From Sutcliffiella horikoshii (GTDB lineage Bacteria; Bacillota; Bacilli; Bacillales; Bacillaceae_I): a DNA stretch of 64,000 bases. Position numbers and translations under genes: made by a program. The stretch's first letter is position 1. Each line of letters opens with the position of its first letter. The notes beneath the pieces were generated by a model. The model was not told the DNA's origin and ran no database searches. It saw only the letters and a program-made list of their open reading frames with translations. The stretch covers positions 868,001-932,000 of the forward strand of contig NZ_CP020880.1 in the NCBI RefSeq assembly GCF_002157855.1, written 5' to 3'. Positions 653 to 23,185 of this stretch are shown piece by piece.

Positions 653-964
653 GGCGTCTCAAGGCATGAAGAGGGTGGGAGAGTGGAAGACGGTAACAGA
701 GGAGGGCGTCTCAAGGCCTGAAGAGTGGTGGGAGAGTGGCAAACGGTAACAGAGAAGGCGTCTCAAGGCCTGAAGCGTGGTGGGAAAGTGGCAAACGGTA
801 ACAGAGAAGGCGCCTCAAGGCCTGAAGCGAGGTTGGAGAGTGGAAAACGGTAACAGAGAAGGCGTCTCAAGGCCCGAAGCGTGGTGGGGAAGTGACAAAC
901 GGTAACAGAGAAGATGTCTCAATGCGTAAAGCTCAGTGAAATCCAGGGAATTTGTCTAATAGAA
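653..964. repeat. 52-bp tandem repeat array 1 (five good units plus one decayed)
   Basis: The motif GGCGTCTCAAGGC recurs at 653, 705, 757, 809 and 861, with a decayed form at 913 (GATGTCTCAATGC), giving an exact 52-bp period. Each unit continues with TGAAGCGTGGTGGGA-like sequence and ends in CGGTAACAGAGAA. Units 2, 3 and 5 are nearly identical; unit 6 keeps only its ends. The period is not a multiple of three and no long reading frame crosses it, so it is non-coding. It fills the space between the LysR remnant and the terminator of the convergent lipoprotein gene. Confidence 0.95.
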
Positions 965-1020
965 TCCATATTTCACTAAATGCATATCTCATCTCCCTCA
1001 GTTCAGTCCCGAAATCCATA

Positions 1021-1058
1021 CAAAAAGTGGCCACATAGATACCGTCTATGTGACCACC
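1021..1058 (-). terminator. Intrinsic terminator of the transglutaminase-like lipoprotein gene
   Basis: Read on the minus strand, GTGGTCACATAGA and TCTATGTGGCCAC form a 13-bp stem (one wobble pair) around CGGTA, followed directly by TTTTTG. It lies just after the minus-strand stop at 1073. Confidence 0.85.
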
Positions 1059-1072
1059 AAAATTACAACTCA

Positions 1073-2773
1073 TCAATACCTAACCCCAGTCCGAGTATGT
1101 GTCTTTTTAAAATCATCCGGGTTTGGATCAAAATAATCCTCATTATAAGCAGTAACAAACTTATCATCACGATCGATATATCCTGATCCCCATGTAGGGT
1201 CCATCTCGATCCACTCGCCGTCCAAATTCGCCTCGACCCATGCATGATTCCCCGGCCATGGAGAGCCAGCTCGCCCCTCCACATATCTAGCCTCGACCCC
1301 ACTTGCACGCATTAGAGCAATTGCCAGGTAGGCATAATCTTGACAGACACCTGTCATAGAATCCAACGTCTTCAGTGCACTGTCGTCCCACTCAAACTCA
1401 TTGTTTCTATATTTTTGCACATCATAGCTGACATTCTTAGCAACATATTCGTATATTGTTTTTGCCTTCTCGCGGTCAGAATCCATACGAGCAGTCAGCT
1501 CTTCAGCAAGTTTAATAATCTCAGGCGCATCAGACTGAACGCCTCGAGAAGGCAATAGATCCCGTCTATCTTCCGCTGAAGCGGTCACATCAAATTTAGC
1601 AAATCCATAATAGCGGAAAAAATCACTATTTTCTTCTTTGATTTCAGGAACGCTCAATGTTACCTCATACTCACCAGGTCCGAAACGCAGATAAAAGGAA
1701 CCGTTAAACTCATAGTTTTCCACAGGGATTACATCAAGTGCCTCGTCGTCGCCTTTTTTCGTCGTTACATAAATGTGGGTAGTCTGTGGCCCAAACTCAG
1801 CTTCAGGGTCAATTCTACCTTTTACTGAATAGGTTCCTTCCGCCTCGTCCCCTCCGTATTGTGGGGATTCAAGTGTCACGCCACGCTCTTTATATGCAGA
1901 ATAATATTCTAATGGCTGCATTACTCGTTCAGAGGCGTTGTCTATATATAGAGTCGATGCAAGTTGATAGTAGTCTTCCCGCTCACCATCCGGGACCAAT
2001 ACTTCCAGTTGGTGAAGTCCTTTTCCATAGAACAGTGGAATGTCTGTTGAAAATTGTCCATTTTCAACAGTGACCATATGCTTCCAAATATCGGAGTCCT
2101 TTTTTAACTGAAGCATGATGGTATCCCCGTCTAAGAGATTACTTGCTTTCCCTTCGAAAGAGAATAGCTCATTTTCCTTTAAAAATGACGATTCTACATC
2201 GAACTGAAGTCCGGCATCATGTCCAAAAGGAGTTAGTGAAACATCATATGTTGATTCCGGGTTTACATTATGGACGGTAAAACTAGCAGTATCGTAGTAA
2301 TAGTTTTCACGATTGGTGTCCGGAAGTTGAACAGTGACCCGATATTCCCCTTCACCATTAAAGAAAGAGATGTTCTCTTTAAACTCGCCATCTTGTATTG
2401 GTGCATAATATTCCATCACATTACCTGTAGGCCCATCCTCATCGGAACGAACCTTAATCCAAACGTACTCCCCTTTTAAATCAGCATGCTTCTCAACGGT
2501 TCCTGCGATCTCTACTTGGCCGTTTGTACTGAATTCCTTGTACTCAGGTGTAAGGAACGTCGCATTAACTTCTTCTGCATAAGAGGTTAGCTCAAGTGCT
2601 TCGAGCTTCAATTCTGCATTCTTTTTATCCACAAGTTGTTCATATTTGTCTTTTACTACTTCTTGCTCAGCAGGCTGATTTTCCTCGACGCTCGTATTTT
2701 TATCTGAACAGGCAGAGAGAATTAAACTGCTGCTCAAAACTAACACTGTTATATACCGGTAATTTATTACCAT
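1073..2773 (-). CDS. Transglutaminase-like domain lipoprotein
   Basis: A 566-residue surface lipoprotein. The N-terminus has a signal peptide ending in a lipobox (ILSAC, Cys22), so it should be tethered to the outer face of the membrane. Residues about 40-410 contain several beta-rich stretches that look like repeated Ig-like or carbohydrate-binding-like modules. Residues about 420-555 form a transglutaminase-like cysteine protease fold with the expected Cys (GVCQDYA), His (NHAWVEA) and Asp (EMDPTWG) triad. Relatives act on peptide or protein substrates at the cell surface; whether this one cross-links or hydrolyses cannot be told. The start is fixed by AAGGAGG 5 nt upstream. It is monocistronic with its own terminator. 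Confidence 0.85.
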   Translation of the reverse strand: MVINYRYITVLVLSSSLILSACSDKNTSVEENQPAEQEVVKDKYEQLVDKKNAELKLEALELTSYAEEVNATFLTPEYKEFSTNGQVEIAGTVEKHADLKGEYVWIKVRSDEDGPTGNVMEYYAPIQDGEFKENISFFNGEGEYRVTVQLPDTNRENYYYDTASFTVHNVNPESTYDVSLTPFGHDAGLQFDVESSFLKENELFSFEGKASNLLDGDTIMLQLKKDSDIWKHMVTVENGQFSTDIPLFYGKGLHQLEVLVPDGEREDYYQLASTLYIDNASERVMQPLEYYSAYKERGVTLESPQYGGDEAEGTYSVKGRIDPEAEFGPQTTHIYVTTKKGDDEALDVIPVENYEFNGSFYLRFGPGEYEVTLSVPEIKEENSDFFRYYGFAKFDVTASAEDRRDLLPSRGVQSDAPEIIKLAEELTARMDSDREKAKTIYEYVAKNVSYDVQKYRNNEFEWDDSALKTLDSMTGVCQDYAYLAIALMRASGVEARYVEGRAGSPWPGNHAWVEANLDGEWIEMDPTWGSGYIDRDDKFVTAYNEDYFDPNPDDFKKTHTRTGVRY

Positions 2774-2978
2774 TATATCCTCCTTGGGACGGGTCTTTTT
2801 CGTCCAATTAAGTTGTATCTTTTACATACGTATGTACGAACTAGAAAGTTTCTGATGCTATCTTACTATTAAATTGGAAAACTTTGAATAGAAAGGGTGA
2901 AACAATGTGGTGGTAGAATTAGGAATTTGGAGGTGTTATAGTTAGGCTATAGGTAAAATATTCCTTGGAGGTCAAACT

Positions 2979-3980
2979 ATGCTAGAGAAGATAAAGGAAA
3001 CGATTGAACAACTATCCGAAAAGGATGCTAAAACATGGCTGCGCTTAACCTTGCTCCGTTTAGATCAATTAACGAAAATAGACGTGCCAAAAGAAGAAAT
3101 TATAGAAGAGATACAGCATATAGTTCAAATAATTGACCACCAGCCACCACCTCGAACAAATTATGACATGATACATATTGCAGGGAGCGAATCTACTGCC
3201 GGATCACTAAAGGTCGGTTTGGAGAGAAACCATAAGGTAATAGGTTTTTGGGAAATGTTCGATATCGGTCCCTTAGGTGATTCATCTACTAGGCAAGAGT
3301 GGCTCCAAGATCATATTAATATTTTTGAAGATTTCTTTGAAGAAGAGTTTACTAGCAAATTTAAAAAAGCGATCGAAGAATTAAACCATATTCCTCCACA
3401 TTTCCCTGTAATTCTATGGACAGCTGATAATGCCCATGAACAAATTTTCCATAGATACATTCTTCACCACTTGCGTAACAGTGATAATGAAGTGGTTCTT
3501 ATTAATGCAACCAAAGGTTATGGAAACCTTCCACTTTCCAAGCATTTTGTCCCTGCTCATTCGGGTGAAATCATGCCGGAAACGTTGAAAGTTATTTTTG
3601 AAAATGAATCGGAAAATATTCTGCCCATAAATGCTAGAAACCAATTATCAGACGAGTGGCTTCAACTAAAAGGAACGAAGGACCTGCTTCGTATTTGGAA
3701 GAACGAGGAGATACAAGGGGTCCCTGAAGAGTATATAGACCAAGAATTACTTCATTGTGCTCAAAAAGTCCAAAGGGATTTTGCCGAAAATGATTTTGTA
3801 AAGGCAACGCGTATTATCGGTGAAATGCATGGTCAGTTAGAAGGGGAATTCAATACTGCGTTTTTAGAATATCGCCTTCGAACTCTTGCTTTTGAAGGTT
3901 ATTTCAAGATAAAGGGGATACCAAAATCCATGCGACACTATAGCGTTAGATTAAAAGATAGGGAGGGGGAACATGCGTGA
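2979..3980 (+). CDS. DUF1835/DUF3658-type protein
   Basis: A 333-residue soluble protein with the DUF1835 signature: MIHIAGSESTAGSLK near residue 65, then F-x-x-x-F-D-I-G-P-L and an ILWTADNAHEQ segment, followed by a DUF3658-like C-terminal half (LSDEWLQL, RIIGEMHG). No catalytic function is established for the family. Residues 1-60 are helical and charged. The ATG follows TTGGAGG by 7 nt. The stop overlaps the GTG start of the next gene by 4 nt, so the two are translationally coupled. Confidence 0.75.
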   Translation: MLEKIKETIEQLSEKDAKTWLRLTLLRLDQLTKIDVPKEEIIEEIQHIVQIIDHQPPPRTNYDMIHIAGSESTAGSLKVGLERNHKVIGFWEMFDIGPLGDSSTRQEWLQDHINIFEDFFEEEFTSKFKKAIEELNHIPPHFPVILWTADNAHEQIFHRYILHHLRNSDNEVVLINATKGYGNLPLSKHFVPAHSGEIMPETLKVIFENESENILPINARNQLSDEWLQLKGTKDLLRIWKNEEIQGVPEEYIDQELLHCAQKVQRDFAENDFVKATRIIGEMHGQLEGEFNTAFLEYRLRTLAFEGYFKIKGIPKSMRHYSVRLKDREGEHA

Positions 3981-4930
3981 AAAAAGTATTATCGTTTTTG
4001 TTTGTTCTCATTTTATTGGTGATTGGAGCGACAGTGGTTTTTGGTCAATTAAAAGAAACGTTTAGTTTTAATTTCAGTACGTCTCCGATTGAACAAGAAG
4101 AAACAGTGAGCGGCAGTGAAGCGGAAAACATAGAAATCCGCGCCACATCCGCGGATATCAAAGTGGTTTCTGTGGAAAGAGAGGACATCTATGCGAAATT
4201 ATCAGGAGATGTTAGTGAGAAAAACAAGGGCAAGTATAAACTTATAGTTAAGGAAGTCGACGGAACAATACAAATTGAAGTCGAACAACCAAACATGGAA
4301 TTCCAAATTGGTACCAACATAACAAGCTTGAAAGTCGAAATAGAAGTACCGGAAAAAACTTATACAGAGTTATCCACCATTTCCACATCAAGCGATATTC
4401 AAATGTCAGGGTTGCAAGTGAATTCCTTGAGAACAGAGGTGACTTCTGGGGATATTATGGTCGAAAATATTACCATAAAAGATAGTTATTTCATTGAACT
4501 GACAAGTGGTGATGTTCGCATTGAGAACACGGAAGCCAAGAACATAACTATAGAAGGAACAAGCGGCGATATCACCTTCAAGGAAGTTCTAGCGGATCTT
4601 CAAGTGGATACCACATCAGGAGATATCAATGTCTGGGGTGTTGAAGGGAATGTAGACGTTGAGACTACTTCTGGGGATATCGAGATAGATAATAAACGTG
4701 TAACAGGCAATCTGGAGGTGGAGGTAACAAGCGGAGATGTGAGTGTTAAGTTCGACGAAAATCCTTCCTCTCTAGCAGTTGACTTCAAAGGGCGATCAGG
4801 AAAGGGAACAGTAAACTTAGATGGAATGCAATATAAAGAGAAAAGTGAGAGGAATATAGAAGGACAAATTGGAGACGGGGAATTCTTGCTAAAAGTAAGA
4901 ACGACTTCAGGGGATTTTAGACTAAATTAA
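3977..4930 (+). CDS. DUF4097 (LiaG/YvlB-like) beta-repeat membrane-anchored protein
   Basis: A 317-residue protein with one N-terminal hydrophobic helix (residues 4-24) and no lipobox, so probably membrane anchored and facing outward. The rest is DUF4097: a ladder of short beta strands in which T-S-G-D-I/V/F recurs about eight times, predicting a right-handed beta-solenoid. B. subtilis LiaG of the cell-envelope stress operon has this architecture, but no lia two-component genes lie nearby. The GTG start overlaps the upstream stop and is served by GGGAGGGGG. Function is unknown beyond an envelope location. Confidence 0.75.
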   Translation: MKKVLSFLFVLILLVIGATVVFGQLKETFSFNFSTSPIEQEETVSGSEAENIEIRATSADIKVVSVEREDIYAKLSGDVSEKNKGKYKLIVKEVDGTIQIEVEQPNMEFQIGTNITSLKVEIEVPEKTYTELSTISTSSDIQMSGLQVNSLRTEVTSGDIMVENITIKDSYFIELTSGDVRIENTEAKNITIEGTSGDITFKEVLADLQVDTTSGDINVWGVEGNVDVETTSGDIEIDNKRVTGNLEVEVTSGDVSVKFDENPSSLAVDFKGRSGKGTVNLDGMQYKEKSERNIEGQIGDGEFLLKVRTTSGDFRLN

Positions 4931-5017
4931 TTTAATGAAATTAACAATGTATATTCCTTCCACCATCCCTATGCTATATTTATAAAGTAATTCTACATAG
5001 ATAAACATGGGGGCATT

Positions 5018-6634
5018 ATGAAAAGATCGTTCAGTTTACAGGCACTATTATCAGCAAGTTTTGCAACATTGATTATTGTTTTGACGATTGTGTTGAGCGT
5101 TGCGATTGGACACCGTTCCAATGATGAGGTTCGAAGTGAGATAGGAAATTCGCTTAAAGAGACATCTTATATTATGGCAGGGAAATTAGATCATTATATG
5201 TGGTCGCGTTACGGAGAGGTCTCCATGCTGAGCACTCTATCAGAAATGAGACAGACAGAAGATTTGGTTGGACAACAGCAAATTCTTGATCGGCTGAAGG
5301 AGAAATTCCCTTCTTTTTCTTGGATAGGAATGACAGATAAGGACGGTGCTGTCCTGTCCTCAACCGATGGAATTTTACAAGGGGCAGACATATCAGAAAG
5401 GCCGGTATTCACAGAAGCACAAAATAAAACTTTTATCGGCGATGTCCATGAAGCGGTACTACTTGCAGAATTGCTACCGAACCCTACCGGTGAAGTAATG
5501 AAGTTCGTGGATATCAGTACGCCAGTATATAATGAAAAAAATCAATTTATTGGTGTATTGGCGGCTCATTTAAGCTGGGAATGGGCCAAGGAAATTGAGG
5601 ATTCCATGTTAAAACCACTTCAGAAAAGAAACAGTTTGGATATGTTTATTGTAAGTGGAGTGGATGATAGTGTGTTGCTTGGACCAGAAGAAGAGCTCGG
5701 AAGTATGCTGCAACTGACAAGCGTGAAAGAAGCCCGAAAAGGGGGTAACGGCTGGGTTCTTGAAAAGTGGCCGAATGGGAAAGAGTATCTGACCGGATAT
5801 GTCCTGGCAAGTGGCTACAAAGATTATCCTGGGCTCGACTGGGTGATTCTTGTTCGTCAACCAATAGATGCTGCTTATGCTCCAATTAAAGAAACACAGC
5901 AATACATCTACACGTTTGGATTTATTTTGGCTGGGCTGCTTGCAATCCTTGGTTGGATTGTTGCCGGTAAAATAACCTTACCGTTAAAAAATATAACAAC
6001 TGCTGCGGATCAGTTGAGGCGTGGGGAACGGGTAACTATACCTGCCCACAAAGGCATTAAGGAAATAGAAGTTCTCTCGTATTCTTTAAAAAAACTGATC
6101 TCTAAGCTCACGAAAACAGAGACTGCGCTAGAGAAAATGGAAAACGTCGCCCATCGCGATCATTTAACTGGACTGTTAAACCGAATCCCGTTGTATGCTT
6201 TTATAGAGGAAACAATGAAAAAGGATCTTCCATTCGCTGTTCTCTATATGGACTTGGATGGTTTCAAAAAAGTTAATGACAATCTAGGTCATGAAGTAGG
6301 GGATATTCTTCTAAAAGATGTTAGTGAGAGGCTTAGTGAAGTGACACCTGCAGGGGGGATGGTTGCCAGAATGGGTGGAGATGAATTTGTCATGGTCCTG
6401 CCTGTTGCTGCTCACCCTGAAAAAGAAGGATTGAAAGTGGGGGAAAGCGTCATCGCCTCCATCAACAAGCCATTCAAAGTGAACGTACAAGAAGTTTCTG
6501 TCGGTTGTAGTATAGGGGGAGCTGTGTGGGACCCGGCTACTTTTGATACGAGTAAAGTGAACGAGATAATAAGGAGAGCTGATGAGGCCCTTTATAAGGT
6601 AAAACGAACGGGCAAAAATAGAATGGCATTTTAA
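5018..6634 (+). CDS. dCache-HAMP-GGDEF diguanylate cyclase
   Basis: A 538-residue membrane sensor that should make cyclic di-GMP. Order: TM helix at about 8-30, extracytoplasmic Cache-type sensor at about 35-295, second TM at about 298-320, HAMP linker to about 370, and a GGDEF domain to the end (DHLTGLLNR, then GGDEF at 453-457). The active-site motif is intact, so catalysis is likely. The inhibitory I-site (R-x-x-D just before the A-site) is replaced by P-A-G-G at 444-447, so product inhibition through that site should be absent. No EAL domain. The ATG follows a GGGGG ribosome site; a strong terminator follows. Confidence 0.9.
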   Translation: MKRSFSLQALLSASFATLIIVLTIVLSVAIGHRSNDEVRSEIGNSLKETSYIMAGKLDHYMWSRYGEVSMLSTLSEMRQTEDLVGQQQILDRLKEKFPSFSWIGMTDKDGAVLSSTDGILQGADISERPVFTEAQNKTFIGDVHEAVLLAELLPNPTGEVMKFVDISTPVYNEKNQFIGVLAAHLSWEWAKEIEDSMLKPLQKRNSLDMFIVSGVDDSVLLGPEEELGSMLQLTSVKEARKGGNGWVLEKWPNGKEYLTGYVLASGYKDYPGLDWVILVRQPIDAAYAPIKETQQYIYTFGFILAGLLAILGWIVAGKITLPLKNITTAADQLRRGERVTIPAHKGIKEIEVLSYSLKKLISKLTKTETALEKMENVAHRDHLTGLLNRIPLYAFIEETMKKDLPFAVLYMDLDGFKKVNDNLGHEVGDILLKDVSERLSEVTPAGGMVARMGGDEFVMVLPVAAHPEKEGLKVGESVIASINKPFKVNVQEVSVGCSIGGAVWDPATFDTSKVNEIIRRADEALYKVKRTGKNRMAF

Positions 6635-6644
6635 AAAGATTAGT

Positions 6645-6686
6645 GGAGTTCCAAGAAATGAAAAGTCTTGGGACTCCCTTTTTTAT
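6645..6686 (+). terminator. Terminator after the diguanylate cyclase gene
   Basis: GGAGTTCCAAGA and TCTTGGGACTCC pair over 12 bp with one wobble, followed by CTTTTTTATT. Confidence 0.85.
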
Positions 6687-6762
6687 TGTTTTGGATATTA
6701 TTTATTCGATATCATGTATACTAAGCTGATAGATGCCATAACCGAAAGGGGGCTAACACCTG

Positions 6763-6954
6763 ATGAAATTTTTTAAATCACAAATGAAACAGCTTATTAA
6801 AGACAATGATGAATTGCAGCAACGTTTAAGAGAATTGATGGACGAGCACGGCTTAGAAAAGAACTTCGCCTTAAAAGCTCTCTATCACTCTGAAGTGGCA
6901 GAAGGCGGAAAGTATCAAACAGATTATCAAGCGCTTGATGCATCGAAAAACTAA
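6763..6954 (+). CDS. Small charged helical protein, unknown
   Basis: A 63-residue cytosolic protein, mostly amphipathic helix with leucine and charged heptads (LIKDNDELQQRLRELMDEHG) and a polar tail. No membrane segment, signal or cysteine motif is visible. GGGGG lies about 10 nt before the ATG, and it is closely followed by a terminator, so it forms its own short transcription unit. I do not recognise the family. Confidence 0.6.
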   Translation: MKFFKSQMKQLIKDNDELQQRLRELMDEHGLEKNFALKALYHSEVAEGGKYQTDYQALDASKN

Positions 6955-6971
6955 TAGCATGAAAAATGAAC

Positions 6972-7005
6972 AGAGCAGACCCTAAATCGGGTTTGCTCTA
7001 TTGTT
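6972..7005 (+). terminator. Terminator after the 63-residue gene
   Basis: AGAGCAGACCC and GGGTTTGCTCT form an 11-bp stem around TAAATC, followed by ATTGTTT. Its position inside the longest possible frame of the next gene argues that the aminotransferase starts downstream at 7065. Confidence 0.8.
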
Positions 7006-7064
7006 TATCAAGTGATAAGTTTAAAATAGAAGGAACTTATAAATTGGAAAGGTGTCTGGTACCA

Positions 7065-8258: not shown

Positions 8259-8261
8259 ATC

Positions 8262-8308
8262 AAAGGGGCGGCTCGATTGCTTATAAAGCATCGGAGCTGT
8301 CCTTTACT
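8262..8308 (+). terminator. Probable terminator after the aminotransferase
   Basis: An imperfect hairpin (AAAGGGGCGGCTCGATTGCT with AAGCATCGGAGCTGTCCTTT) starts 4 nt after the stop. The stem has mismatches and the T-run is short. Confidence 0.5.
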
Positions 8309-8385
8309 AATTAATGCTCGATTTTTCGGCTCATGGGCTGAGCTTGAACACGATGAAGACAATCCCAGAGTGGAAATCGATGTAA

Positions 8386-8416
8386 AAATGTCTTCATAAC
8401 AGGTATGAAGACATTT
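8386..8416. repeat. Perfect inverted repeat, intergenic
   Basis: AAATGTCTTCATA and TATGAAGACATTT form a perfect 13-bp stem around ACAGG. It is followed by GGTCTTTAGACATTTTATT, so a terminator role is possible. The rest of the 8259-8514 gap shows nothing else clear. Confidence 0.7.
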
Positions 8417-8514
8417 GGTCTTTAGACATTTTATTTTTAAATAATGGAACCTTATTTAGCTCACAAACGTAGAGAATAGTAGATATTTTTATATAAATTT
8501 AAGAAGGTGATCAT

Positions 8515-8766
8515 TTGGAAAAAGTAAGGTGGTTTTTGTACACAGTTGCAGGATTGTTGATTGTGATTCCAACAATGTATGTTTTTATAGCAGATACTTA
8601 TTTTAGCTCTGTGACTAGTAACATTCTAATATCTATAGCAATATTGTTGGTGATACTCGGTAAGTTAATAAGTGTATTTGAAAAGAAGAAAGAGAATGGT
8701 AGATACGCGGTTGATATTGGGGCAATCATTGGACTTGCGATTGTATTAATTATAGGTATCGTATAA
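8515..8766 (+). CDS. Small two- or three-TM membrane protein
   Basis: An 83-residue hydrophobic protein with membrane segments at about 7-27, 36-52 and 62-82, a short basic loop (EKKKENGR) and no cysteines or signal cleavage site. The start is TTG at 8515, with AAGAAGGTG 6 nt upstream; no closer ATG gives both TM segments. It lies 38 nt before another small membrane protein and is probably co-transcribed. Family not recognised. Confidence 0.6.
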   Translation: MEKVRWFLYTVAGLLIVIPTMYVFIADTYFSSVTSNILISIAILLVILGKLISVFEKKKENGRYAVDIGAIIGLAIVLIIGIV

Positions 8767-8804
8767 TAATTGGGAAACATTTCTATTAGAGAGGAGATGC
8801 GTAC

Positions 8805-14985: not shown

Positions 14986-14991
14986 TTTTTA

Positions 14992-15021: not shown

Positions 15022-15023
15022 TT

Positions 15024-15040
15024 GTTTAATTAAATTAAAC
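15024..15040. promoter_or_regulatory. Palindromic operator 2 in the XRE/MFS divergent spacer
   Basis: GTTTAATTAAATTAAAC, differing from operator 1 only at its centre; the centres are 55 bp apart, about five helical turns, which would suit cooperative or looped binding. Confidence 0.7.
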
Positions 15041-15064
15041 TTTTATATAAACGGGGTGCTTTTA

Positions 15065-16375
15065 ATGGAGGAAAGTTTAAAATTGAAAAGAGCGACATAC
15101 CATCTGTACACCTTTATGATTAGTAAATTAATCTCCACTTTCGGATCACAGGTATATGCATTTGCTATCAGCTTCTATATTTTGCAGCTTACTGGTTCTG
15201 CAACAAGCTTTGCGACAAACCTTCTATGTAATATTCTACCACGAACACTTGCTGGGCCATTTGTTGGAGCTATCACTGACCGATATTCTAGAAAAAAGAT
15301 TGTTATAATCTCACAAGTAGCCACAACCCTTGCTATCACAGGACTTCTCATATACACCCTTACATCAGGACTCTCTCTCATAGCGATTTACACAACAACT
15401 TGTATCCTTTCGTTGACTTCCATGTTTTCAGGCATTGCATTTACTTCATCTATTACAGGTTTAATTGATCAAGCTCGAATTCAAAAAGCAATGGCGATGA
15501 ATCAGATGGCGATTTCCTTTGCTGCAATAGGAAGCCCTGCCGTTGGTGGTCTTTTATATGGAACTGTTCCTATACCTGTTTTCCTTGTTATGTTTATTGT
15601 TGCCTCTGTCATTGCGGTAATTTTGGAATCAACGATGAACTTCCGCTTGTTTTCTGGTGAAAAGAGTAGTGTAGAGAAGGGGGAGCAGAAGGAATCTATG
15701 TGGCAAAGCATGAAAGCAGGCTTAAGCTATATACGATTCCAAAAAACCATTATGGTCATGCTCTGGATTAGTTTGCTCATTAATTTCCTTTTCGGAGCTT
15801 ATGAAGTGGGCTATTCGTATATCTTGATTGAGAAATTGCAAATAGAGTCGCAGCATTTCGGTTTGACCCAAGGAGCATTTTCTCTTGGCATGTTGCTAAT
15901 GTCGGTTTATTTTTCTGCTAGAAAAGAAGTGCGATTTCCGTTGCTACTTTCAAAACGAGGGATTATAGGTCTTGGGGCAGTTATGGGATCAATCTCTCTG
16001 CCGCTTTTATTATCAATGAATTATTGGATGATGTTCTCCTATTTTATGATACTCATGTTCAGTTTCGGATCGCTTATCATTATCGTCAATACGCCATTGC
16101 AAGTGATGCTTCAAAAGACCATTGCTGACGAATTCAAAGGGCGTGTATTTTCTATTATTGAAACGATGGCGATGGCACTTATTCCACTTGGGATGGTCAT
16201 TTACGGTGTGTTGTATGATATCTTTCCTGGGGAGTGGATCTTGCTCTTATCAGCGGGGATGCTCATCGTTATTACACTCATCATGGCGAGGCCGTCGGTT
16301 ATTCGAAAAGTGCACCCAGAGATTGGTGAGAAGCAGAGTGGCCGTGTTGTGGAGACGGGGAGTGTGGCACGTTAA
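15065..16375 (+). CDS. MFS transporter (MefA/EntS-like efflux type)
   Basis: About 436 residues with twelve predicted membrane helices and the MFS loop motif between TM2 and TM3 (GAITDRYSRKK). It resembles the MFS_3 group that includes macrolide and siderophore exporters. The substrate is not deducible. GGGGTGC lies before the ATG at 15065, preferred over the in-frame GTG at 15056 that sits inside that ribosome site. It is probably repressed or activated by the divergent XRE-TPR protein through the palindromes upstream. A 52-bp repeat array starts 6 bp after its stop. Confidence 0.85.
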   Translation: MEESLKLKRATYHLYTFMISKLISTFGSQVYAFAISFYILQLTGSATSFATNLLCNILPRTLAGPFVGAITDRYSRKKIVIISQVATTLAITGLLIYTLTSGLSLIAIYTTTCILSLTSMFSGIAFTSSITGLIDQARIQKAMAMNQMAISFAAIGSPAVGGLLYGTVPIPVFLVMFIVASVIAVILESTMNFRLFSGEKSSVEKGEQKESMWQSMKAGLSYIRFQKTIMVMLWISLLINFLFGAYEVGYSYILIEKLQIESQHFGLTQGAFSLGMLLMSVYFSARKEVRFPLLLSKRGIIGLGAVMGSISLPLLLSMNYWMMFSYFMILMFSFGSLIIIVNTPLQVMLQKTIADEFKGRVFSIIETMAMALIPLGMVIYGVLYDIFPGEWILLLSAGMLIVITLIMARPSVIRKVHPEIGEKQSGRVVETGSVAR

Positions 16376-16380
16376 GAGGG

Positions 16381-16646
16381 TATGAAGACCTATGTCGAAG
16401 AGTATTGAGGTCAGAGAGGTCTTGATAGGCAGTATGAGGACATCAGAAAGGGAAAATCGAGGTCAGAGAGGTCTTGATAGGCAGTATGAAGACATCAGAA
16501 AGGGAAAATCGAGGTCAGAGAGGTCTTGATAGGCAGTATGAAGACATCAGAAAGGGAAAATCGAGGTCAGAAAGGTCTTGATAAGTAGTATGAAGACATC
16601 AGAAGGGGAGAATCTTAGTCAGAGAGGTCTTAACGAAGACCTCTCT
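16381..16646. repeat. 52-bp tandem repeat array 2, ending in a hairpin
   Basis: AGGTCTTGAT recurs at 16417, 16469, 16521 and 16573, with a fifth AGGTCTT at 16625, an exact 52-bp period. Units run on as AGGCAGTATGAAGACATCAG then AAAGGGAAAATCGAGGTCAG. A partial unit (GAAGACCTATG...) precedes the first. Units 2 and 3 are identical. The last unit becomes a perfect 11-bp hairpin, AGAGAGGTCTT/AAGACCTCTCT (16621-16646, loop AACG), without a T-run. The array fills the space between two convergent genes and is non-coding. Confidence 0.95.
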
Positions 16647-16663
16647 CCTTAAAACATCTACCC

Positions 16664-17302
16664 TCACTTCTTCAAACTACTATACACAACCAACCGATCG
16701 GAGTAATTCCTACTTTCCCGGTTAAACGTTCCTGTACAGGTAATCAGGTTTAAATTGCTCTGGAAAGAATAATCAAAGAGGGCTTCTACAGGAGACTCAT
16801 CCTCGGGATAGGTTTCTATTCTGTCCACCACATAGGTCAGGGATTCGCCATCTGCATTAGAAACAATAATTTCGTCACCAGCTTCTAGATTTTTTAACTC
16901 GAAAAACACTGCAGGGCCGTTGCGGCTGTCGACATGTCCAGAGATGACGGAGTTTCCGCGCTCTCCTGGCATGGGGCCTTCATTATACCAGCCGACTGTC
17001 TCGAAAGATTCGGGGACGCCCATTTGACCGTTTTCGATAACCCCTACTTGTTCAACTAGTGCATCGACACCGATAGAGGCGATTTCGATTCGGTGGGGTT
17101 CAATACTGATCGATTCATCTTTTATGACTTTCCCGTTTTCATTTGTTGTTTGTGTACGGGTAGGGAGGGGAGTTTTTTGATTGGTAGGGGCCGCAGTTGC
17201 TTCGTTTGGAGATTCTTTTTCCGTAGTTTGATCACCAGCTGTCCCCGAACTGCATCCGACCAGTAAAAGAAGCATAAATGATAAAGCGGTTAGTAGTTTC
17301 AT
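16664..17302 (-). CDS. Class F-type sortase, lipoprotein form
   Basis: A 212-residue sortase. Catalytic residues are in place: His123 (SGHVDS), Cys189 (NLITCTG) and Arg203 (YSDRLVVY). The fold region (residues about 66-210) matches single-domain class F enzymes such as those beginning RIEIASIGVDA. The N-terminus has a lipobox (LLLVGC, Cys17) followed by a Thr/Pro-rich linker of about 45 residues, so the enzyme appears lipid-anchored. It lies 70 nt downstream of the duplicated His-containing surface protein, probably in one operon, suggesting that protein as substrate. Confidence 0.9.
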   Translation of the reverse strand: MKLLTALSFMLLLLVGCSSGTAGDQTTEKESPNEATAAPTNQKTPLPTRTQTTNENGKVIKDESISIEPHRIEIASIGVDALVEQVGVIENGQMGVPESFETVGWYNEGPMPGERGNSVISGHVDSRNGPAVFFELKNLEAGDEIIVSNADGESLTYVVDRIETYPEDESPVEALFDYSFQSNLNLITCTGTFNRESRNYSDRLVVYSSLKK

Positions 17303-17372
17303 AGTTCTTCTCCTTCTAGAAAATGATAGTAGGAAAGAGAGGGAGCGCTCCCTCTCTTCTTATTTCAAACTA

Positions 17373-18731
17373 TTATTCTTGTGTCGCTTTTCTTCTAAAT
17401 GCAATGACTTGCGTTAAGACAATTGCGGAAATCAATCCTGCAACCGTCCAAGCGATAGCAGCGTTCATTCCATTATCAGCTGCACCACCCATACCTGCAG
17501 CAGGCATGTCAGTTGGCATGTCTTTTTCAAAGTTCTCTGGGAATTGGTCCACAATCGCACCAGACATCATTTCGCCGACACCGAACATGTGGGCATATGA
17601 TTCACGGATTGTGTTGTAAGTAGTTTCATAGTTTGCTTCGTTATAACTGTTGAAAGCAAGAAGTAACTCATCAATGTGCATTTGCAATCCTTCTTCAAGG
17701 TCAGCTGCTTTTAGGCGGCCTTCTGTTGCTGTATCAAGGAATGCAGCCTGTTCTACTTTATACTCTTCCAATTCAGCAATTGCTACTTCACGGCCTTCTT
17801 CATTTTCTTCACCAGTTGCAACCACATAATCTACGAAATATCCGATATGGCTGCTCCATATCTCTTCGAATGCTGCTCCGCCTTCTTCACCATAAACAGA
17901 TCCTACAGCTACAGATAGATCAGCAGTGTTTTCATTTAAAGCTCCTGCAGCATTTTCAAAGTCACCAGCTCCATCAATTCCTTTTTGCATAGCTAGAACT
18001 GCTAGCGCAGCGTGCTCAGCGAAAAGGTGGTTCAAGTCAGCGCGTAAGTCTGCTGCTGGTGTGTCAACACTAGTATTCTCGAATTTTTCCGGGAATTGGT
18101 CTGTGATCGCCCAAGATAATCCTTTCCCTGGCTCATACATATGCTCGATTGCATGACGGACATTGTCATATGCTTTGTCAAAGTCACCAGCGACATAGTT
18201 GTCAAATGCCCAAACTAGTTGCTCCACGTGCATTTTTAGTCCAGCTTCTAGTTCGCTTGCTTTTAGGCGACTTTCTGTTGCAGTGTCCAGAAACGCTGCT
18301 TGTTCTGCTGTATATTCATCCAACTCGGCTAATGCCTGTTGTCTGCCTTCTTCATTTTCTTCCGCAGTAGCTGTTACATAATCTACGAAATATCCAATAT
18401 GGCTGCTCCAAATTTCTTTGAATGCTGCTCCGCCTTCTTCACCATAAACGGAAGCTACTGCTGCGGACAAATCATTTGTATTTGCATTTAATGCGCCAGC
18501 TGCTTGCTCGAAGTCTTCTGCTCCGTCAATTCCTTTTTGCATCGCTACGACTGCCAAGAAAGCATGCTCTGATAACAATGCATCTAAAGAAGCTCTCAAG
18601 TCAGATGCCGGTGTGGATACAGAGGCGTGTGGATGATGATGTTCTCCATCGTGTGCACTTGCTACTTGAAAAGTCGGTACTAATAATCCTACGCTAAGTG
18701 GTACGGCTACCATTGCTTTTTTCCAGTTCAT
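17373..18731 (-). CDS. Tandemly duplicated helical surface protein with conserved His, unknown function
   Basis: A 452-residue exported protein. The signal peptide probably ends at Ala-Ser-Ala26, exposing an N-terminal HDGEHHHPH stretch. Two copies of a helical domain follow (about 38-217 and 222-401) with an exact 184-residue offset: His56/240, His111/295, His168/352 and His197/381 are all conserved, suggesting a metal-binding helical bundle per copy. The C-terminus has MPAAG (409-413), a TM helix at about 423-444 and an RRK tail, shaped like a degenerate sortase signal. Relatives are sometimes labelled copper amine oxidase, but no such catalytic motif is visible. AAAAGGAGTG precedes the ATG. 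Confidence 0.7.
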   Translation of the reverse strand: MNWKKAMVAVPLSVGLLVPTFQVASAHDGEHHHPHASVSTPASDLRASLDALLSEHAFLAVVAMQKGIDGAEDFEQAAGALNANTNDLSAAVASVYGEEGGAAFKEIWSSHIGYFVDYVTATAEENEEGRQQALAELDEYTAEQAAFLDTATESRLKASELEAGLKMHVEQLVWAFDNYVAGDFDKAYDNVRHAIEHMYEPGKGLSWAITDQFPEKFENTSVDTPAADLRADLNHLFAEHAALAVLAMQKGIDGAGDFENAAGALNENTADLSVAVGSVYGEEGGAAFEEIWSSHIGYFVDYVVATGEENEEGREVAIAELEEYKVEQAAFLDTATEGRLKAADLEEGLQMHIDELLLAFNSYNEANYETTYNTIRESYAHMFGVGEMMSGAIVDQFPENFEKDMPTDMPAAGMGGAADNGMNAAIAWTVAGLISAIVLTQVIAFRRKATQE

Positions 18732-18885
18732 GATCTAAGCACTCCTTTTTAGTTGGTTTCACTTACCTAACGGAGCAGATCAGAAACTGGATCACTTTTT
18801 TTGAAAAAAATAAAAAAGTCTTCCACTTTGTCTGTATAATGGAAATTAGAAGTGGTTGAAAAATACATATCGTGGGAGTAATACC

Positions 18886-19509
18886 ATGAAGCTACCTATT
18901 TCAAAATTAGATATCCACAAACTTACCGATGAACAAATGACTGACCTATTATTTAAAAATATTAAAGATGACAATAGAAATGGCGACTGTATTTTCGTTC
19001 CTGGGAGTAGCAAGGCGGTCCAATATCGGTTGCCTCCAGCTATTCAGCTCTATAAGGAAGGAAGAGCAGGGAAAATATTATTTTCAGGTGGAGTAATTTG
19101 GGACGGTAACAAACTTAGCGAGGCACAGCTCTTGGCAGAGAAGGCGATGGAATTAGGGGTGCCTTCTGAGGATATCCTCATTGAAAACCAGTCCCTGCAC
19201 ACAAAGGAAAATGTCCTGGCATCTTTGCTCGTATTAGATAGAGCGCTCCATCTTCATAAAATAAACCGGTTGCTTGTGGTGACAAGTCATTATCATATGA
19301 GACGGATGAACTTGAAACTCCAAACTTATATGCCAAATTGGATTGATTATTCTCTTTGTCCTGTCAATGACAGAACTACACGAGAAGACAACTGGTTTCT
19401 TAATCCCTATGGTAGACAACGGGTGGAGGCAGAGTCTGCTAAGCTGATCAGTTATGTGAAACAGGGAATTATCATAGATCAGGAGTTGGAATTTACCAAT
19501 CTCCCATAA
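18886..19509 (+). CDS. DUF218 (YdcF-like) protein
   Basis: A 207-residue protein of the YdcF/SanA-like DUF218 family: CIFVPGSSKAVQYRL near residue 39, GKILFSGGV, LIENQSLHTKENV and VVTSHYHMRR are the usual conserved segments, forming a Rossmann-like fold. It lacks the N-terminal membrane anchor of some members, so it should be cytosolic. Function is not established. GGGAG lies 7 nt before the ATG at 18886; the upstream in-frame TTG at 18856 has no ribosome site. Confidence 0.8.
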   Translation: MKLPISKLDIHKLTDEQMTDLLFKNIKDDNRNGDCIFVPGSSKAVQYRLPPAIQLYKEGRAGKILFSGGVIWDGNKLSEAQLLAEKAMELGVPSEDILIENQSLHTKENVLASLLVLDRALHLHKINRLLVVTSHYHMRRMNLKLQTYMPNWIDYSLCPVNDRTTREDNWFLNPYGRQRVEAESAKLISYVKQGIIIDQELEFTNLP

Positions 19510-19544
19510 GTACGAAAATTTTATTTAACACCAGGAGGTACACA

Positions 19545-20129
19545 TTGAAAAAAAACATATCATTTCAATTTCCAATTGAAAAGCAAGATTACACCGAACT
19601 ATTCCGATACATGCCATATTTTAAATCTATCTTCAAAATGGCGACTGTAGGGAACTTGGTTGCACTCTTTTTATTTTGTGGTTACAACATTATTGCCAAC
19701 CTTCAGATCGCACAAGATGGCACGCAATTCCTTATTTTGAATATTGTTACCGTCGTTATTGGATTTGTCATGTACTATGTCATTCTGTTCTTGATCCGCT
19801 TGTTCTTCAGGAAGATTATTGAGAATAGAAGCAACAAACTCCATTCGCTATATTTTAAATCCAATAATACCTATCAAGTTGGGTTCGATCCCCGTTTTAA
19901 TGCCTTTGTACTTGGGAAGGAAAAGATGAAAATTCCTGCTGACCAATCCTTCACCGTGATTGAAACAGAACGTAATTTATTGTTTTATGTGGGCAAAGGA
20001 AAAGGAAAGGAGGACAAGTTCTTCATCTCAAAATCGGGTTCGGCACCCGACCATGCGCTAAAGCTCGAGCGCTTCACCACTATGTTACAAGAGAAGGGAA
20101 TTGCCGTACAAACGACAAAACCAATCTAA
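19545..20129 (+). CDS. Two-TM membrane protein (YcxB-like C-terminal region), unknown
   Basis: A 194-residue protein with TM helices at about 34-56 and 65-90 followed by a soluble beta-rich domain of about 100 residues (TYQVGFDPRFNAFVLGKEKM, NLLFYVGKGKGKEDKFFIS). The plan, two helices then a PH-like cytosolic domain, is like the YcxB-type family, but the match is weak. TTG start at 19545 with AGGAGG 6 nt upstream. Confidence 0.55.
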   Translation: MKKNISFQFPIEKQDYTELFRYMPYFKSIFKMATVGNLVALFLFCGYNIIANLQIAQDGTQFLILNIVTVVIGFVMYYVILFLIRLFFRKIIENRSNKLHSLYFKSNNTYQVGFDPRFNAFVLGKEKMKIPADQSFTVIETERNLLFYVGKGKGKEDKFFISKSGSAPDHALKLERFTTMLQEKGIAVQTTKPI

Positions 20130-20200
20130 TATTACCGGTTTTTGAAAATATCAGAAACCAATCTAGGCGTTTTTTCATACTATGGTGTTGAGGTGAAATT

Positions 20201-20638
20201 ATGGCTAGAGTTAAGTTTACAGATTCAGATGTAGCGTTAGTGGCAAGGATGATGAGAGCGGAAGCAGAGGGTGAAGGCAAGCAAGGTATGCTTTATGTCG
20301 GCAATGTTATAACCAATCGTGCAGTAGCCGATTGTTTAGATTTCAAAGAAGTAAGAACCATTCGGCAAGTTATCTATCAAGTGCAAGGCGGAAATTATTC
20401 ATTTGAAGCGGTTCAAAAGGGTAATTTATTTTATAACAGAGCAAGATCGGTTGAAAAAAACTTAGCTAGAAAGACGTTGACTTCTTGGAGAGAGCATCCA
20501 GCAAAATATGCCTTATGGTATTTCAATCCTTACGCACCATGTCCTCCAACATGGTATGATCAACCTTTTTCCGGTCAATTCAAACAGCATTGTTATTACG
20601 AACCGATTGCGGGTACTTGTGCAAGTGTTTATTCGTGA
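20201..20638 (+). CDS. cwlJ: CwlJ-type spore cortex-lytic hydrolase
   Basis: A 145-residue SleB/CwlJ-family enzyme (Hydrolase_2 domain only, no signal peptide or peptidoglycan-binding domain), as in B. subtilis CwlJ of about 142 residues. Conserved RAEAEGEG (catalytic Glu21), GMLYVGNVITNR, DCLDF and the C-terminal CPPTWYDQPF ... YEP are all present. CwlJ is made in the mother cell, sits in the coat and degrades cortex during germination in response to calcium-dipicolinate. GAGGTG precedes the ATG. A CATACTAT element about 20 nt further up resembles a SigE -10, but no clear -35 is seen. The usual partner gerQ is not in the window. Confidence 0.9.
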   Translation: MARVKFTDSDVALVARMMRAEAEGEGKQGMLYVGNVITNRAVADCLDFKEVRTIRQVIYQVQGGNYSFEAVQKGNLFYNRARSVEKNLARKTLTSWREHPAKYALWYFNPYAPCPPTWYDQPFSGQFKQHCYYEPIAGTCASVYS

Positions 20639-20658
20639 ACCAACTATCATTACTTATT

Positions 20659-20696
20659 AGAGGACTCTTTGGCAGCTATGCGGAGTTCTCTTTTTT
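20659..20696 (+). terminator. Terminator after cwlJ
   Basis: AGAGGACTC and GAGTTCTCT pair (one wobble) and are followed by TTTTTT. Confidence 0.85.
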
Positions 20697-20824
20697 ATAG
20701 GAAAAGATTAAATTCATTTCCTGTTATTGGGTTTTTAATGGGAGAATGGTAGAATTATAGGGATGGTTTTACTTGGAATGGGGTGTGTAATCTGACTATT
20801 AATTTCGGGTATGCGGAGAACATT

Positions 20825-21541
20825 ATGGAGTTGCTTTGTATCTTACTTGCATGGGGATTGATTGCTGTGCTTGTTATTCGTATTTATCTTGGGCAAGATG
20901 CAGAAGAACGTCCAAAATTATGGAAGATAATTATTGCTGTTTTATTGGGGCTGTTTTCATTTACCTTCTCGTTCCCACTTTTTAATGAACCATTTTCCAT
21001 TGCAATTCTTCCACTTGGAGTATGGATATTATATGGGCTATTGAATAGAAAAGGACGTTGGCAAGCTTACCGGAAATATGCTTGGACGGGATTTGGAGGC
21101 AACTTTATATTTTTGAGTACAGCAATTCTTGCGATCGGATTAGCTACTGTGTTCTATCCAAGCGATGAAGTGCGGACGTATCTTACAGATGTTTCAGAAG
21201 TGGAATTGTTGGTGACTCACCCATCTGGCGGCGAAGTGAAAATAAATGAGGAAAAGTTTAAGGACTCTCTATCTACTTTTAATTACGAGCGCTCGAACGT
21301 CATTCAATGGTTTGAAGAAATACGAGAGCAGATTTGGCCAGAAGAAGAGAGTGAAGAGCCAGTCGAAATTCAAGAGAAATTTCCATATCTGTTAACAGGC
21401 GTAAAAACGAAAACTGGTGACAAGATTCGTGTTTATGTGGAACAAGACGGTAAGGGACTGCTTGTTACCACGAAGGAAAAACAGCATTACTATCGATCAA
21501 AGACGGCTTCCTTTTTAGAAGAAAGGGGGAATGCTGAATGA
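20825..21541 (+). CDS. Membrane protein with extracytoplasmic domain, unknown
   Basis: About 238 residues: four predicted TM helices in the first 115 residues (LLCILLAWGLIAVLV, IIIAVLLGLFSFTFSF, IAILPLGVWILYGLL, FLSTAILAIGLATVF), then a polar acidic domain of about 120 residues. GCGGAG precedes the ATG at 20825; the GTG at 20783 lacks a ribosome site. Its stop overlaps the next start by 4 nt (ATGA), so the two are an operon. I do not recognise the family. Confidence 0.6.
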   Translation: MELLCILLAWGLIAVLVIRIYLGQDAEERPKLWKIIIAVLLGLFSFTFSFPLFNEPFSIAILPLGVWILYGLLNRKGRWQAYRKYAWTGFGGNFIFLSTAILAIGLATVFYPSDEVRTYLTDVSEVELLVTHPSGGEVKINEEKFKDSLSTFNYERSNVIQWFEEIREQIWPEEESEEPVEIQEKFPYLLTGVKTKTGDKIRVYVEQDGKGLLVTTKEKQHYYRSKTASFLEERGNAE

Positions 21542-22254
21542 CGAAAAAAGCAATTTTTCTAATATTCTTTGTAGTAGCTTTAATCGCTGGCACTATTATA
21601 ACGTACATAATGATGACACCAAAAGCGTTCTATTCAGAGGACGAAATCATCGAAAATATGGATTATTTAACTCAAGAAATTGAAGTGTTAGATAGTATGC
21701 AATTAGATGAAAAAACTTATTTTGTCCCACACTTATCAAATGATGGTAAATCCTATGGTTCTAGCATTTGGGTGTGGAGTGGTTGGAAATGGGAATGTGT
21801 TGGTGCAACGACCGCTTCTGATCCACAAATAGTAGTTAATGAGGGGAACTCTTATATTTTCTGGAATGTTCACCCTAAGGATGAGGTACGTGAATGGGAG
21901 TTTTATTTAACATCTGAGCGGAATTATTCTGTAACGTCGGTAGGGGATAATAATCAGTTGGAGGTTTATTATCCAAAGATACAGATGAAACATTCTGTAG
22001 AATTAGAAAAGGGAAGTTATGGGTATGTAAAAGTGCCAAGTAAATGGAAAGAAGTGATTGGTTCCTTTGATTCGTATCCAGCTGAAACGGGAATTATTCC
22101 TTCCAGCCATTCGTATATGTATCAATGGCAGGCTTTTAATGACGACGGAGAATCAATTCGTCTTGAGCATACGTTCCGACGCGGTGGAGGAGGTTCTTAT
22201 GGTGGGAATTATTTCTACCATATGACACAGTTAAATCCTGAAAATTTGGAATAG
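21538..22254 (+). CDS. Membrane-anchored extracytoplasmic protein, unknown
   Basis: A 238-residue protein with an N-terminal membrane helix (residues 5-26) without lipobox, then a beta-rich outward domain with many Trp and Tyr (SIWVWSGWKWECVG, VREWEFYLTSE) and a Gly-rich RRGGGGSYGG stretch near the end. Translation is coupled to the preceding membrane protein. No known family recognised. Confidence 0.55.
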   Translation: MTKKAIFLIFFVVALIAGTIITYIMMTPKAFYSEDEIIENMDYLTQEIEVLDSMQLDEKTYFVPHLSNDGKSYGSSIWVWSGWKWECVGATTASDPQIVVNEGNSYIFWNVHPKDEVREWEFYLTSERNYSVTSVGDNNQLEVYYPKIQMKHSVELEKGSYGYVKVPSKWKEVIGSFDSYPAETGIIPSSHSYMYQWQAFNDDGESIRLEHTFRRGGGGSYGGNYFYHMTQLNPENLE

Positions 22255-22293
22255 ACCTGAAAGAATTAGTAAAGAAGATTTGAGGTAATAGAA

Positions 22294-22890
22294 ATGTTTC
22301 AACAATCAAGCAAGCAATATTATATTTTGGTGTTTCTTTTATTTATTTCTGTATTATATGGATTTCAGAAGCATGTGGAAGTGAATAAGCAACAAGATTT
22401 TTTGGAACCGCATCTTAAAGAAATGGTAGGGAACTTGCAATCGGAGACCAATACTATTTCAAGTATCATGCAAAGGCTGATGAGTGAAAAAGAGATTCCT
22501 TATGCCCAATGGGTTCAATTGAAGAATGGATTCAACTACATAGAGGATACTAGCTATGAAATTGAAAAGCTGGCCAAGGCGATTTATCCACGGCATTCTG
22601 ATGGATTACAGTTTGCAACTAAAACTAGTGCTAGTTTAATTGCAGAGGAATTAAGATATATCGAGGAAACACTGTTGGAAGAGGATATGGATAGATTGGA
22701 TACAGTCGCTTTTCCTACGGAAGTTGAAGCGACATTAGTCCGCATACATGACACTGCAGCTGGGTGGAGTGAAGCAACAAATCCTTTTATAGGCTTACCG
22801 AGCAATTTATTAAGCCGAACAGGTTGGGTAGATATGCTAAAAGAGATGGAAGATGATTCAATTGCGTATCAGGGTGATTATGGGAGCTAA
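22294..22890 (+). CDS. Membrane-anchored helical protein, unknown
   Basis: A 198-residue protein with one N-terminal TM helix (about 9-24) and a long helical, Glu-rich outward region. It starts 40 nt after the previous gene, with TTGAGGTAATAGAA before the ATG, so it is probably the third gene of this operon. No recognised motif. The third 52-bp repeat array lies downstream. Confidence 0.55.
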   Translation: MFQQSSKQYYILVFLLFISVLYGFQKHVEVNKQQDFLEPHLKEMVGNLQSETNTISSIMQRLMSEKEIPYAQWVQLKNGFNYIEDTSYEIEKLAKAIYPRHSDGLQFATKTSASLIAEELRYIEETLLEEDMDRLDTVAFPTEVEATLVRIHDTAAGWSEATNPFIGLPSNLLSRTGWVDMLKEMEDDSIAYQGDYGS

Positions 22891-22953
22891 CTAAAATTAG
22901 GTGTGGCGGAGGTTCTGTTGATGTTGATGGGCCTCTCTTTTTATTACATGGAT

Positions 22954-23185
22954 AGGTTCTATACGCCCGAAGCATGATGGAAAACAGTTGAACGGTTATA
23001 TAAAACGGCTCTATACGCCTGAAGCAACATGAAAATAGTGTTAAAGGTCATATAGAACGGCTCTATACGCCTGAAGCAACATGAAAACAGTGTTAAAGGT
23101 CACATAGAACGGCTCTATACGCCCGAAGGAACATGAAAATAGTGTTAAAGGGCATATAGAACGGCTCTATATGCCCGAAGTATCC
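22954..23185. repeat. 52-bp tandem repeat array 3
   Basis: TCTATACG recurs at 22958, 23010, 23062 and 23114, with TCTATATG at 23166, an exact 52-bp period. A typical unit is CGGCTCTATACGCCTGAAGC, then AACATGAAAA, then a segment ending GGTCATATAGAA. The three middle units are nearly identical; the first is diverged and the fifth decays after about 20 bp. It shares TCT, GCCTGAAGC and the terminal AGAA with array 1 at equivalent unit positions. The 22891-23301 gap holds nothing else clear besides this array. Confidence 0.95.

Follow-up and report, generated by a model that had tools for sequence, protein, structure and literature searches.

Tandem arrays of 52-bp units in Sutcliffiella horikoshii: a published repeat class with a core pattern in 18 genera, lineage-dependent strand polarity and insertion-sequence targeting

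A published repeat class and its members in S. horikoshii

Tandem repeats of 51 to 53 nt are a described class in Bacillus. Subirana and Messeguer (2021; PMC8161180) reported 1886 of them across 176 Bacillus genomes as non-coding, constant in length, variable in sequence and of unknown function; they proposed a binding protein or small RNAs, argued that the length is selected, and described turnover of arrays between strains. Here, we analyze three arrays of 52-bp units in a 64,000-bp stretch of S. horikoshii (“the window”, bases 868,001 to 932,000 of the 4.28-Mb main contig; genome, 4.296 Mb). An earlier note on this DNA had found no named element that fits them. This claim fails, since PMC8161180 describes exactly such a 52-nt class: the arrays are the published non-coding tandem repeats of Bacillaceae, and the class is already known.

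The arrays share with the published repeats the period of 52 (51 to 53), the non-coding position, the presence of several families per genome and the variable copy number. What we add is a core common to 18 genera, a strand polarity that depends on lineage, and targeting by insertion sequences (ISs); PMC8161180 states no sequence conservation. The largest family in this genome, family A, is, up to rotation, family 22_52_12, which Table 1 of PMC8161180 lists for B. horikoshii, whereas window arrays 1 and 3 (families C and B) have no matching unit in that table by eye. The terms “orientation”, “leading strand” and “stop codon” are absent from the text of PMC8161180, as is “orientation” from the accessible parts of the sister papers PMC8625621 and PMC6749651. 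Our literature search returned no paper by other authors on 52-nt arrays among the matches listed, and the 2020 J Bacteriol paper of the same authors may hold more.

Tandem Repeats Finder (TRF; score of at least 30) placed period-52 arrays in the window at 648-922, 16407-16631 and 22958-23180, and its remaining 15 rows have periods of at most 21. The three arrays of exact 52-bp period in the earlier note are therefore real, and their decayed edges reach roughly as far as it had placed them. The arrays and the inverted repeats of array 2 are as follows.

648..922, + strand: array 1, 5.3 copies of a 52-bp unit of family C, GAGAAGGCGTCTCAAGGCCTGAAGC...CGGTAACA, with a decayed tail to ~964 (TRF)
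16381..16646, + strand: array 2, a family A variant with 4.3 clean copies (16407-16631) between decayed ends (TRF)
16419..16441, no strand assigned: first inverted repeat of array 2, GTCTTGAT-N7-ATGAGGAC, recurring at 52-bp steps (read from the sequence)
16621..16646, no strand assigned: perfect inverted repeat at the end of array 2, AGAGAGGTCTT-N4-AAGACCTCTCT, between converging genes (read from the sequence)
22958..23180, + strand: array 3, 4.3 copies of a 52-bp unit of family B, TAGAACGGCTCTATACGCCYGAAGC...GGTCA (TRF)

With 4.3 to 5.3 copies, the window arrays reach the four-repeat minimum of the SATFIND setting of PMC8161180; some arrays elsewhere are shorter. A CRISPR was rejected because entire 52-bp units repeat at 88-94 percent matches without unique spacers (TRF). 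Arrays 1 and 3 have relatives at other places in the chromosome, and they resemble each other beyond chance, at 28 of 52 positions (54 percent rather than the roughly 60 percent claimed earlier; best ungapped rotation, shuffle p 0.0005). The likeness that had been claimed for array 2 is not above chance by the same ungapped test (25/52 with array 1, p 0.07; 23/52 with array 3, p 0.25).

To survey the genome, we sampled 100 stretches of 20 kb, about evenly spaced (2.0 Mb of the main contig), two of them set side by side at 2.16-2.20 Mb, where the strand switch seemed to lie. At a TRF score of at least 50, period 52 accounts for 52 of the 239 rows (44 with at least three copies), and with periods 51 (3 rows) and 53 (4 rows) it makes up the dominant class (59/239), with further rows at 103-106 and 156. 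The spike at 52, in place of the broad spread of periods that the earlier note named as refuting, bears out its view that the period is locked genome-wide while, for much of the sequence, the units differ. Merging gives 54 arrays, or 51 after dropping the second halves of three IS-split arrays, which cover 13.9 kb of the sample and extrapolate to ~110 arrays per chromosome. The arrays are indeed non-coding and 3′ of genes: 52 of the 54 lie outside called genes (our own gene caller was used, and some array neighbors counted are IS genes), and 52 is not a multiple of three. They fall into families A to E, which are related to one another within the genome; family A holds 20 of the 51 arrays, and 2 are unassigned. 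Array density shows no ori-ter gradient and does not rise toward the terminus (Kolmogorov-Smirnov [KS] p 0.71, n = 51). A closer position of family A to the terminus than of B and C (p 0.017) is weak, was one of several tests, and is not used.

A second large period group lies at 20/21 (65 rows, plus 23 at 40-42), followed by period 18 (14 rows). Like the 52-nt class, the 20-21-nt repeats of PMC8161180 are mostly non-coding and of fixed length; they differ in spanning two helical turns, in their sequences, and in a polarity that looks weaker by eye, uncounted. In this genome, the 20-21-bp (also 40-42) class has several families, e.g., AATGGATATATCGTTTTTAC and TTCGGTCAA...CAAAAC, with 48 of 66 merged arrays outside called genes and an orientation that is by eye biased, not absolute. 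Other repeats seen along the way are a 21-bp array of 18.6 copies near an MFS (major facilitator superfamily) relative in Bacillus litorisediminis (L194, 2846-3237), a 133-bp tandem repeat in a genome from a different genus of the family (G017; L225, 16900-17424; 3.9 copies, 97 percent match), and, in this chromosome (G000:C1), a two-gene block present at both 348 kb and 574 kb (L054, L059) at >90 percent identity, whose frames we read as nucleotidyltransferase-like and serine-hydrolase-like.

A core pattern and an inverted repeat within the unit

The pattern TGTCNTTCAT-N7-ATGAANGACA occurs in 29 of 397 Bacillales genomes, representing 18 of 135 genera, with up to 108 copies per genome, whereas the reversed-pattern control occurs in none of the 397 and the core itself in none of 398 genomes drawn phylum-wide. 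At the places listed, core copies are often 52 bp apart. In addition, many genera have loci with periods of 51-53 even though the rest of the unit diverges, these loci having been found via 52-bp units. Because similarity to published units served to find the loci in other genera, conservation of period and core there is partly built in; the less biased tests are the core count over 397 genomes and an unfiltered test of the arm columns.

The unit contains an inverted repeat that exceeds shuffled sequences (p < 0.05) in 17 of 27 published unit consensuses and in 24 of 54 units of this genome. Units are not mutually independent, and our p values ignore this. In this genus, the arms of the inverted repeat are one base shorter than those of TGTCNTTCAT-N7-ATGAANGACA. 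The unfiltered test, which took array-2 units from six loci, found no variation in 15 of 16 arm columns, as against 18 of 36 columns elsewhere in the unit. For family A as a whole, the scan picked units with at least 12 of 16 consensus letters, and arm invariance is partly built in there; within this set (97 units, 21 arrays), C-A stands at pair 4 in 11 arrays, and on the sense strand A-C mismatches number 48 vs 9 for G-T. Over seven loci, the array-2 locus carries a G-G mismatch in 32 of 42 units. Because the sequence is here conserved more than the pairing, family A favors a protein site over a hairpin. A known structured RNA family was rejected for lack of any Rfam match at the gathering score in the window and five loci. 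Outside TRF arrays, the family-A core (at least 14/16 letters) has five matches in the 2.0-Mb sample, of which four are two-unit remnants 52-53 bp apart and one lies in a gene.

Strand polarity, insertion sequences and neighboring genes

Arrays in this chromosome point almost without exception along the leading strand, which we defined by GC skew (flipping at ~2.094-2.097 Mb). Orientation was taken from homology for BLAST hits and from leading-strand purine excess for TRF arrays. With the three window arrays as queries (83 hits merged within 2 kb), 51 of 52 loci follow the leading strand; the leading-strand purine fraction of TRF arrays is above 0.5 in 51 of 52 and 0.50 in one, two reversed halves being left out. 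The array sense strand is purine-rich overall (0.63 vs 0.50-0.53 in other gaps). The sole exception lies at 2.169-2.171 Mb, ~75 kb past the skew flip, and is antisense to both neighbor genes. A dif site at the skew switch was rejected: the Bacillus dif sequence has no hit at 3 mismatches genome-wide, and its best match at the switch, with 8 mismatches, is not used.

Gene direction alone would hardly give this pattern. Called genes are leading in 1618 of 2028 cases, and if arrays only followed genes, at least 51 of 52 would have a p of ~1e-4. An upstream leading gene of the same direction precedes 49 of the 54 arrays, and in 17 of these cases a converging gene follows; the other five arrays comprise the two halves of the reversed array, two second halves behind an IS transposase gene, and one without a called upstream gene. 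No array among the 54 lies between two head-on genes, and none lies in a divergent gap once IS-split arrays are counted once (two that seemed to are halves of such arrays), against 231 of 908 gaps of at least 100 bp (LL 512, HL 231, LH 109, HH 56; L, leading; H, head-on). Gene ends number 621 leading and 165 head-on, and 0 of 49 arrays sit behind and sense to a head-on gene (p ~1e-5). Taken with the 51 of 52 on the leading strand, the array therefore goes with both the gene end and the leading strand here.

Other genomes were searched with a family-A array, with at most forty candidates scored per genome. Arrays are consistent with the leading strand at 39 of 40 loci in G001, 33 of 34 loci in G002 and 7 of 7 hits in G015; G010, G014, G016 and G017 gave no hits with this query. 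For G001 and G002, the point at which the arrays change orientation served to define both replication direction and switch. These two genomes share their exception, one orthologous array 3′ of and sense with a head-on gene; by local GC skew, for which several G002 stretches were also checked, both copies oppose the leading strand. All three exceptions lie within ~150 kb of the strand switch. In genome G132, whose unit is 0.70 purine in the fetched locus, the places listed are on the + strand at 0.87, 0.94, 1.34, 1.94 and 2.00 Mb and on the - strand at 3.21, 3.83 and 4.33 Mb, as expected for polarity. A universal polarity was rejected on the evidence of genomes G319 and G226, from which 20 stretches were taken, one without an array. 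Relative to the upstream gene, the strand with more purines is sense in 10 of the other 19 arrays and antisense in 9, orientation being set by a purine excess that is weak for nearly neutral units. Polarity may follow the purine asymmetry of the unit; it does not hold for the class as a whole.

The arrays are also landing sites. A 1.5-kb IS with a Mutator family transposase (PF00872) is present in eight copies, all eight inside 52-bp arrays (a chance of ~6e-11 given the share of non-coding gap length); by eye, the target duplications measure 8-9 bp and fall at several unit positions. Related copies among the matches listed were examined in two genomes, with at most six scored in each. All five in G002 (97 percent) and all six in G014 (73-74 percent) have an array on one side or both, either directly at the end of the copy or close by; for one G002 copy the distance is ~60 bp. 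Both sampled copies of an IS3-like element also lie inside family-A arrays, whereas no array is near any of the 6 copies of three further multi-copy elements (genes of at least 600 bp, 90 percent identity). The units themselves give no sign of being mobile-element fragments, the other refuting outcome named in the earlier note; instead, mobile elements insert into the arrays. This resembles the repetitive extragenic palindromic (REP) sequences, intergenic palindromes that, according to the accessible part of PMC1525189, serve particular ISs as landing sites. Unlike in the REP case, the Mutator-type IS here entered arrays of other sequence and period too. REPs, moreover, are not known to be locked to a tandem 52-bp period.

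The genes next to the window arrays are listed below.

410..625, + strand: LysR-like C-terminal remnant, a short frame upstream of array 1 (our reading, no profile run)
1073..2773, - strand: transglutaminase-core protein, converging on array 1 (Pfam PF01841)
15056..16375, + strand: MFS transporter, upstream of array 2 (Pfam PF07690)
16664..17302, - strand: sortase, converging on array 2 (Pfam PF04203)
22294..22890, + strand: gene upstream of array 3 (no Pfam match at 1e-5)

The claim that all three arrays lie directly behind a stop codon is loosely true: TRF arrays start 22, 31 (5 to the decayed edge) and 67 bases after the stop for arrays 1, 2 and 3, respectively, and the upstream frame of array 1 is short and looks decayed. 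Two short frames, 24-314 and 410-625, precede array 1; the latter resembles a LysR C-terminal piece and is probably a decayed gene. The nearest named relatives of the MFS gene are from S. horikoshii/Bacillus sp. (79-93 percent protein identity), B. tianshenii (77) and S. halmapala (73). Behind this gene and on the same strand, period-52 arrays of 2.8 to 18.9 copies stand in five relatives (L182, L183, L185, L186, L188), and a remnant of ~1.5 units is visible by eye in a sixth (L184); the array is absent at this place in L187 and L189-L191, and TRF found no 52-bp array in L192-L197.

A proposed phased array of binding sites and its rivals

The reading that we tentatively prefer, with rather less than even confidence, is a phased array of dimer binding sites on one face of the DNA, whose length is held while its sequence drifts. 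Each unit would be one site for a putative dimeric DNA-binding protein, composed of a ~29-bp linker and the inverted repeat, whose half-site reads ATGARGAC in the family A units of this genus; many other genera would have TGTCNTTCAT-N7-ATGAANGACA as the site. A length of 52 bp is close to five helical turns, as the earlier note had remarked, and successive dimers would for this reason lie on the same face, making cooperative binding possible. Any other unit length would break the phasing and with it the cooperativity; length would therefore be held, the core would drift slowly with its protein, and linkers would drift more. Copy number would shift by slippage or unequal recombination, and units would be homogenized within an array. 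In this genus, where the unit is purine-rich, the array would be kept almost only where it follows the leading strand and stands 3′ of a gene that does so too. The landing of two kinds of IS in the arrays is what one would expect were these sites physically marked. Nucleoid clustering, segregation or a similar process is a candidate cellular role.

Several observations weigh against this proposal. The exact wide core is missing from all 16 genomes of this genus searched, and its tie to ATGARGAC rests on likeness. Its near-invariance in other genera is partly built in by similarity-found loci and an 18/20-letter filter, and core pair 5 changes on both sides (C-G 13, C-A 3, T-A 3, G-C 1 in the majority letters of 20 loci), which fits a hairpin too. 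Over all 54 arrays, the information content of the arms, at 0.82 and 0.49 bits, is only mildly above the 0.42 bits of the remaining columns; just the 24 of 54 units noted above exceed shuffles at p < 0.05, and the inverted repeats of families B, C and E, among them those of window arrays 1 and 3, are different and weaker. A palindromic site does not explain polarity, and in G319 and G226 (purine 0.44-0.57) orientation alternates along the chromosome among the matches listed. Finally, a Mutator-type IS also lies inside a 41-bp array (G014:C1:3639338-3641652, L220), so that its targeting needs neither the core nor the 52-bp period.

A neutral or selfish satellite is a possible but rather unlikely alternative. 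Here, an ancestral 52-bp unit would have spread and expanded by slippage, with its length inherited and its polarity and position left by purging from promoters and from the lagging orientation. The earlier note took the locked period to imply selection on length, as PMC8161180 argues likewise; yet the families share an inverted-repeat core, and descent from a 52-bp ancestor could therefore keep the length without selection. The interrelated families, the highly variable copy number at the array-2 place, the avoidance of promoter gaps and the published turnover between strains all suit such a satellite, whereas the recurrence of periods 51-53 across many genera despite unit divergence (in loci found via 52-bp units) and an identical core in 18 genera, which neutral drift would hardly keep, do not. 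An RNA function, which we consider unlikely, would make the arrays 3′ untranslated regions whose hairpin chains influence termination or the stability of the mRNA, or else serve as a protein sponge; head-on copies would be purged via R-loops of purine-rich transcripts. Transcription of this kind is in line with the sense orientation behind an upstream leading gene here and in 23 of 30 cases in other genera, with the inverted repeats of the published consensuses, and with the RNA-seq reads over B. coagulans arrays reported in PMC8161180 and in the accessible part of PMC8625621. It is harder to square with the family-A mismatches, in which pairing is not maintained, with the near-even split of sense and antisense in G319 and G226, with the exceptional array of this chromosome, antisense to both neighbors, and with the empty Rfam search.

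Two further explanations start from polarity. Guidance of a chromosome translocase (SpoIIIE or SftA), like the SpoIIIE recognition sequences (SRS) or the FtsK orienting polar sequences (KOPS), would account for a leading-strand polarity that is near-absolute, its few exceptions confined to the vicinity of the strand switch, and for the purine-rich sense strand, SRS/KOPS motifs being likewise purine-rich and leading-strand polar. These are, however, short scattered motifs, and GAGAAGGG, the B. subtilis SRS, occurs 0 times in the sampled arrays while being skewed 52:15 outside them; identity with SRS/KOPS was rejected on this count. As the arrays are also not denser toward the terminus and lack polarity in G319 and G226, we regard translocase guidance as improbable. 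A spread of REP-like elements by a Y1 transposase of the REP-associated tyrosine transposase (RAYT) type, acting on lagging-strand template DNA, would give polarity by its mechanism, and each of the 16 genus genomes searched has at least one Y1_Tnp match, one of them weak. The Y1 gene of this genome, however, has no 52-bp array in the surrounding 18 kb, and a 43-bp repeat with the palindrome GGGTCAGACCCC, 1.7 kb from it, is the likelier partner, with two relatives alike. Since the Y1 gene is not flanked by the 52-bp repeat, RAYT mobilization of the arrays was rejected, and we find Y1 spread scarcely credible. Separately, this RAYT-like gene (L202, 8827-9519; G000:C1 ~4.006 Mb) lies in a region whose composition is unusual, with a GC content of 45 percent and an AT skew of -0.17.

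Returning to the phased binding sites, a bolder and doubtful extension is that an unrecognized Bacillales DNA-binding protein reads TGTCNTTCAT-N7-ATGAANGACA and its drifted forms at a spacing of five helical turns. It would form co-facial clusters at ~100 sites per chromosome, fork-oriented in purine-rich lineages, for chromosome organization or segregation. The class had been described as a riddle, with a fixed length, no conserved sequence and no function. The core pattern in 18 genera now gives a concrete bait in the search for a binding protein. Replication-based and transcript-based models can be told apart by the strand rule, with its exceptions close to the switch and its lack in two purine-neutral lineages, and the IS copies found inside arrays offer a natural means to probe whatever it is that marks them.

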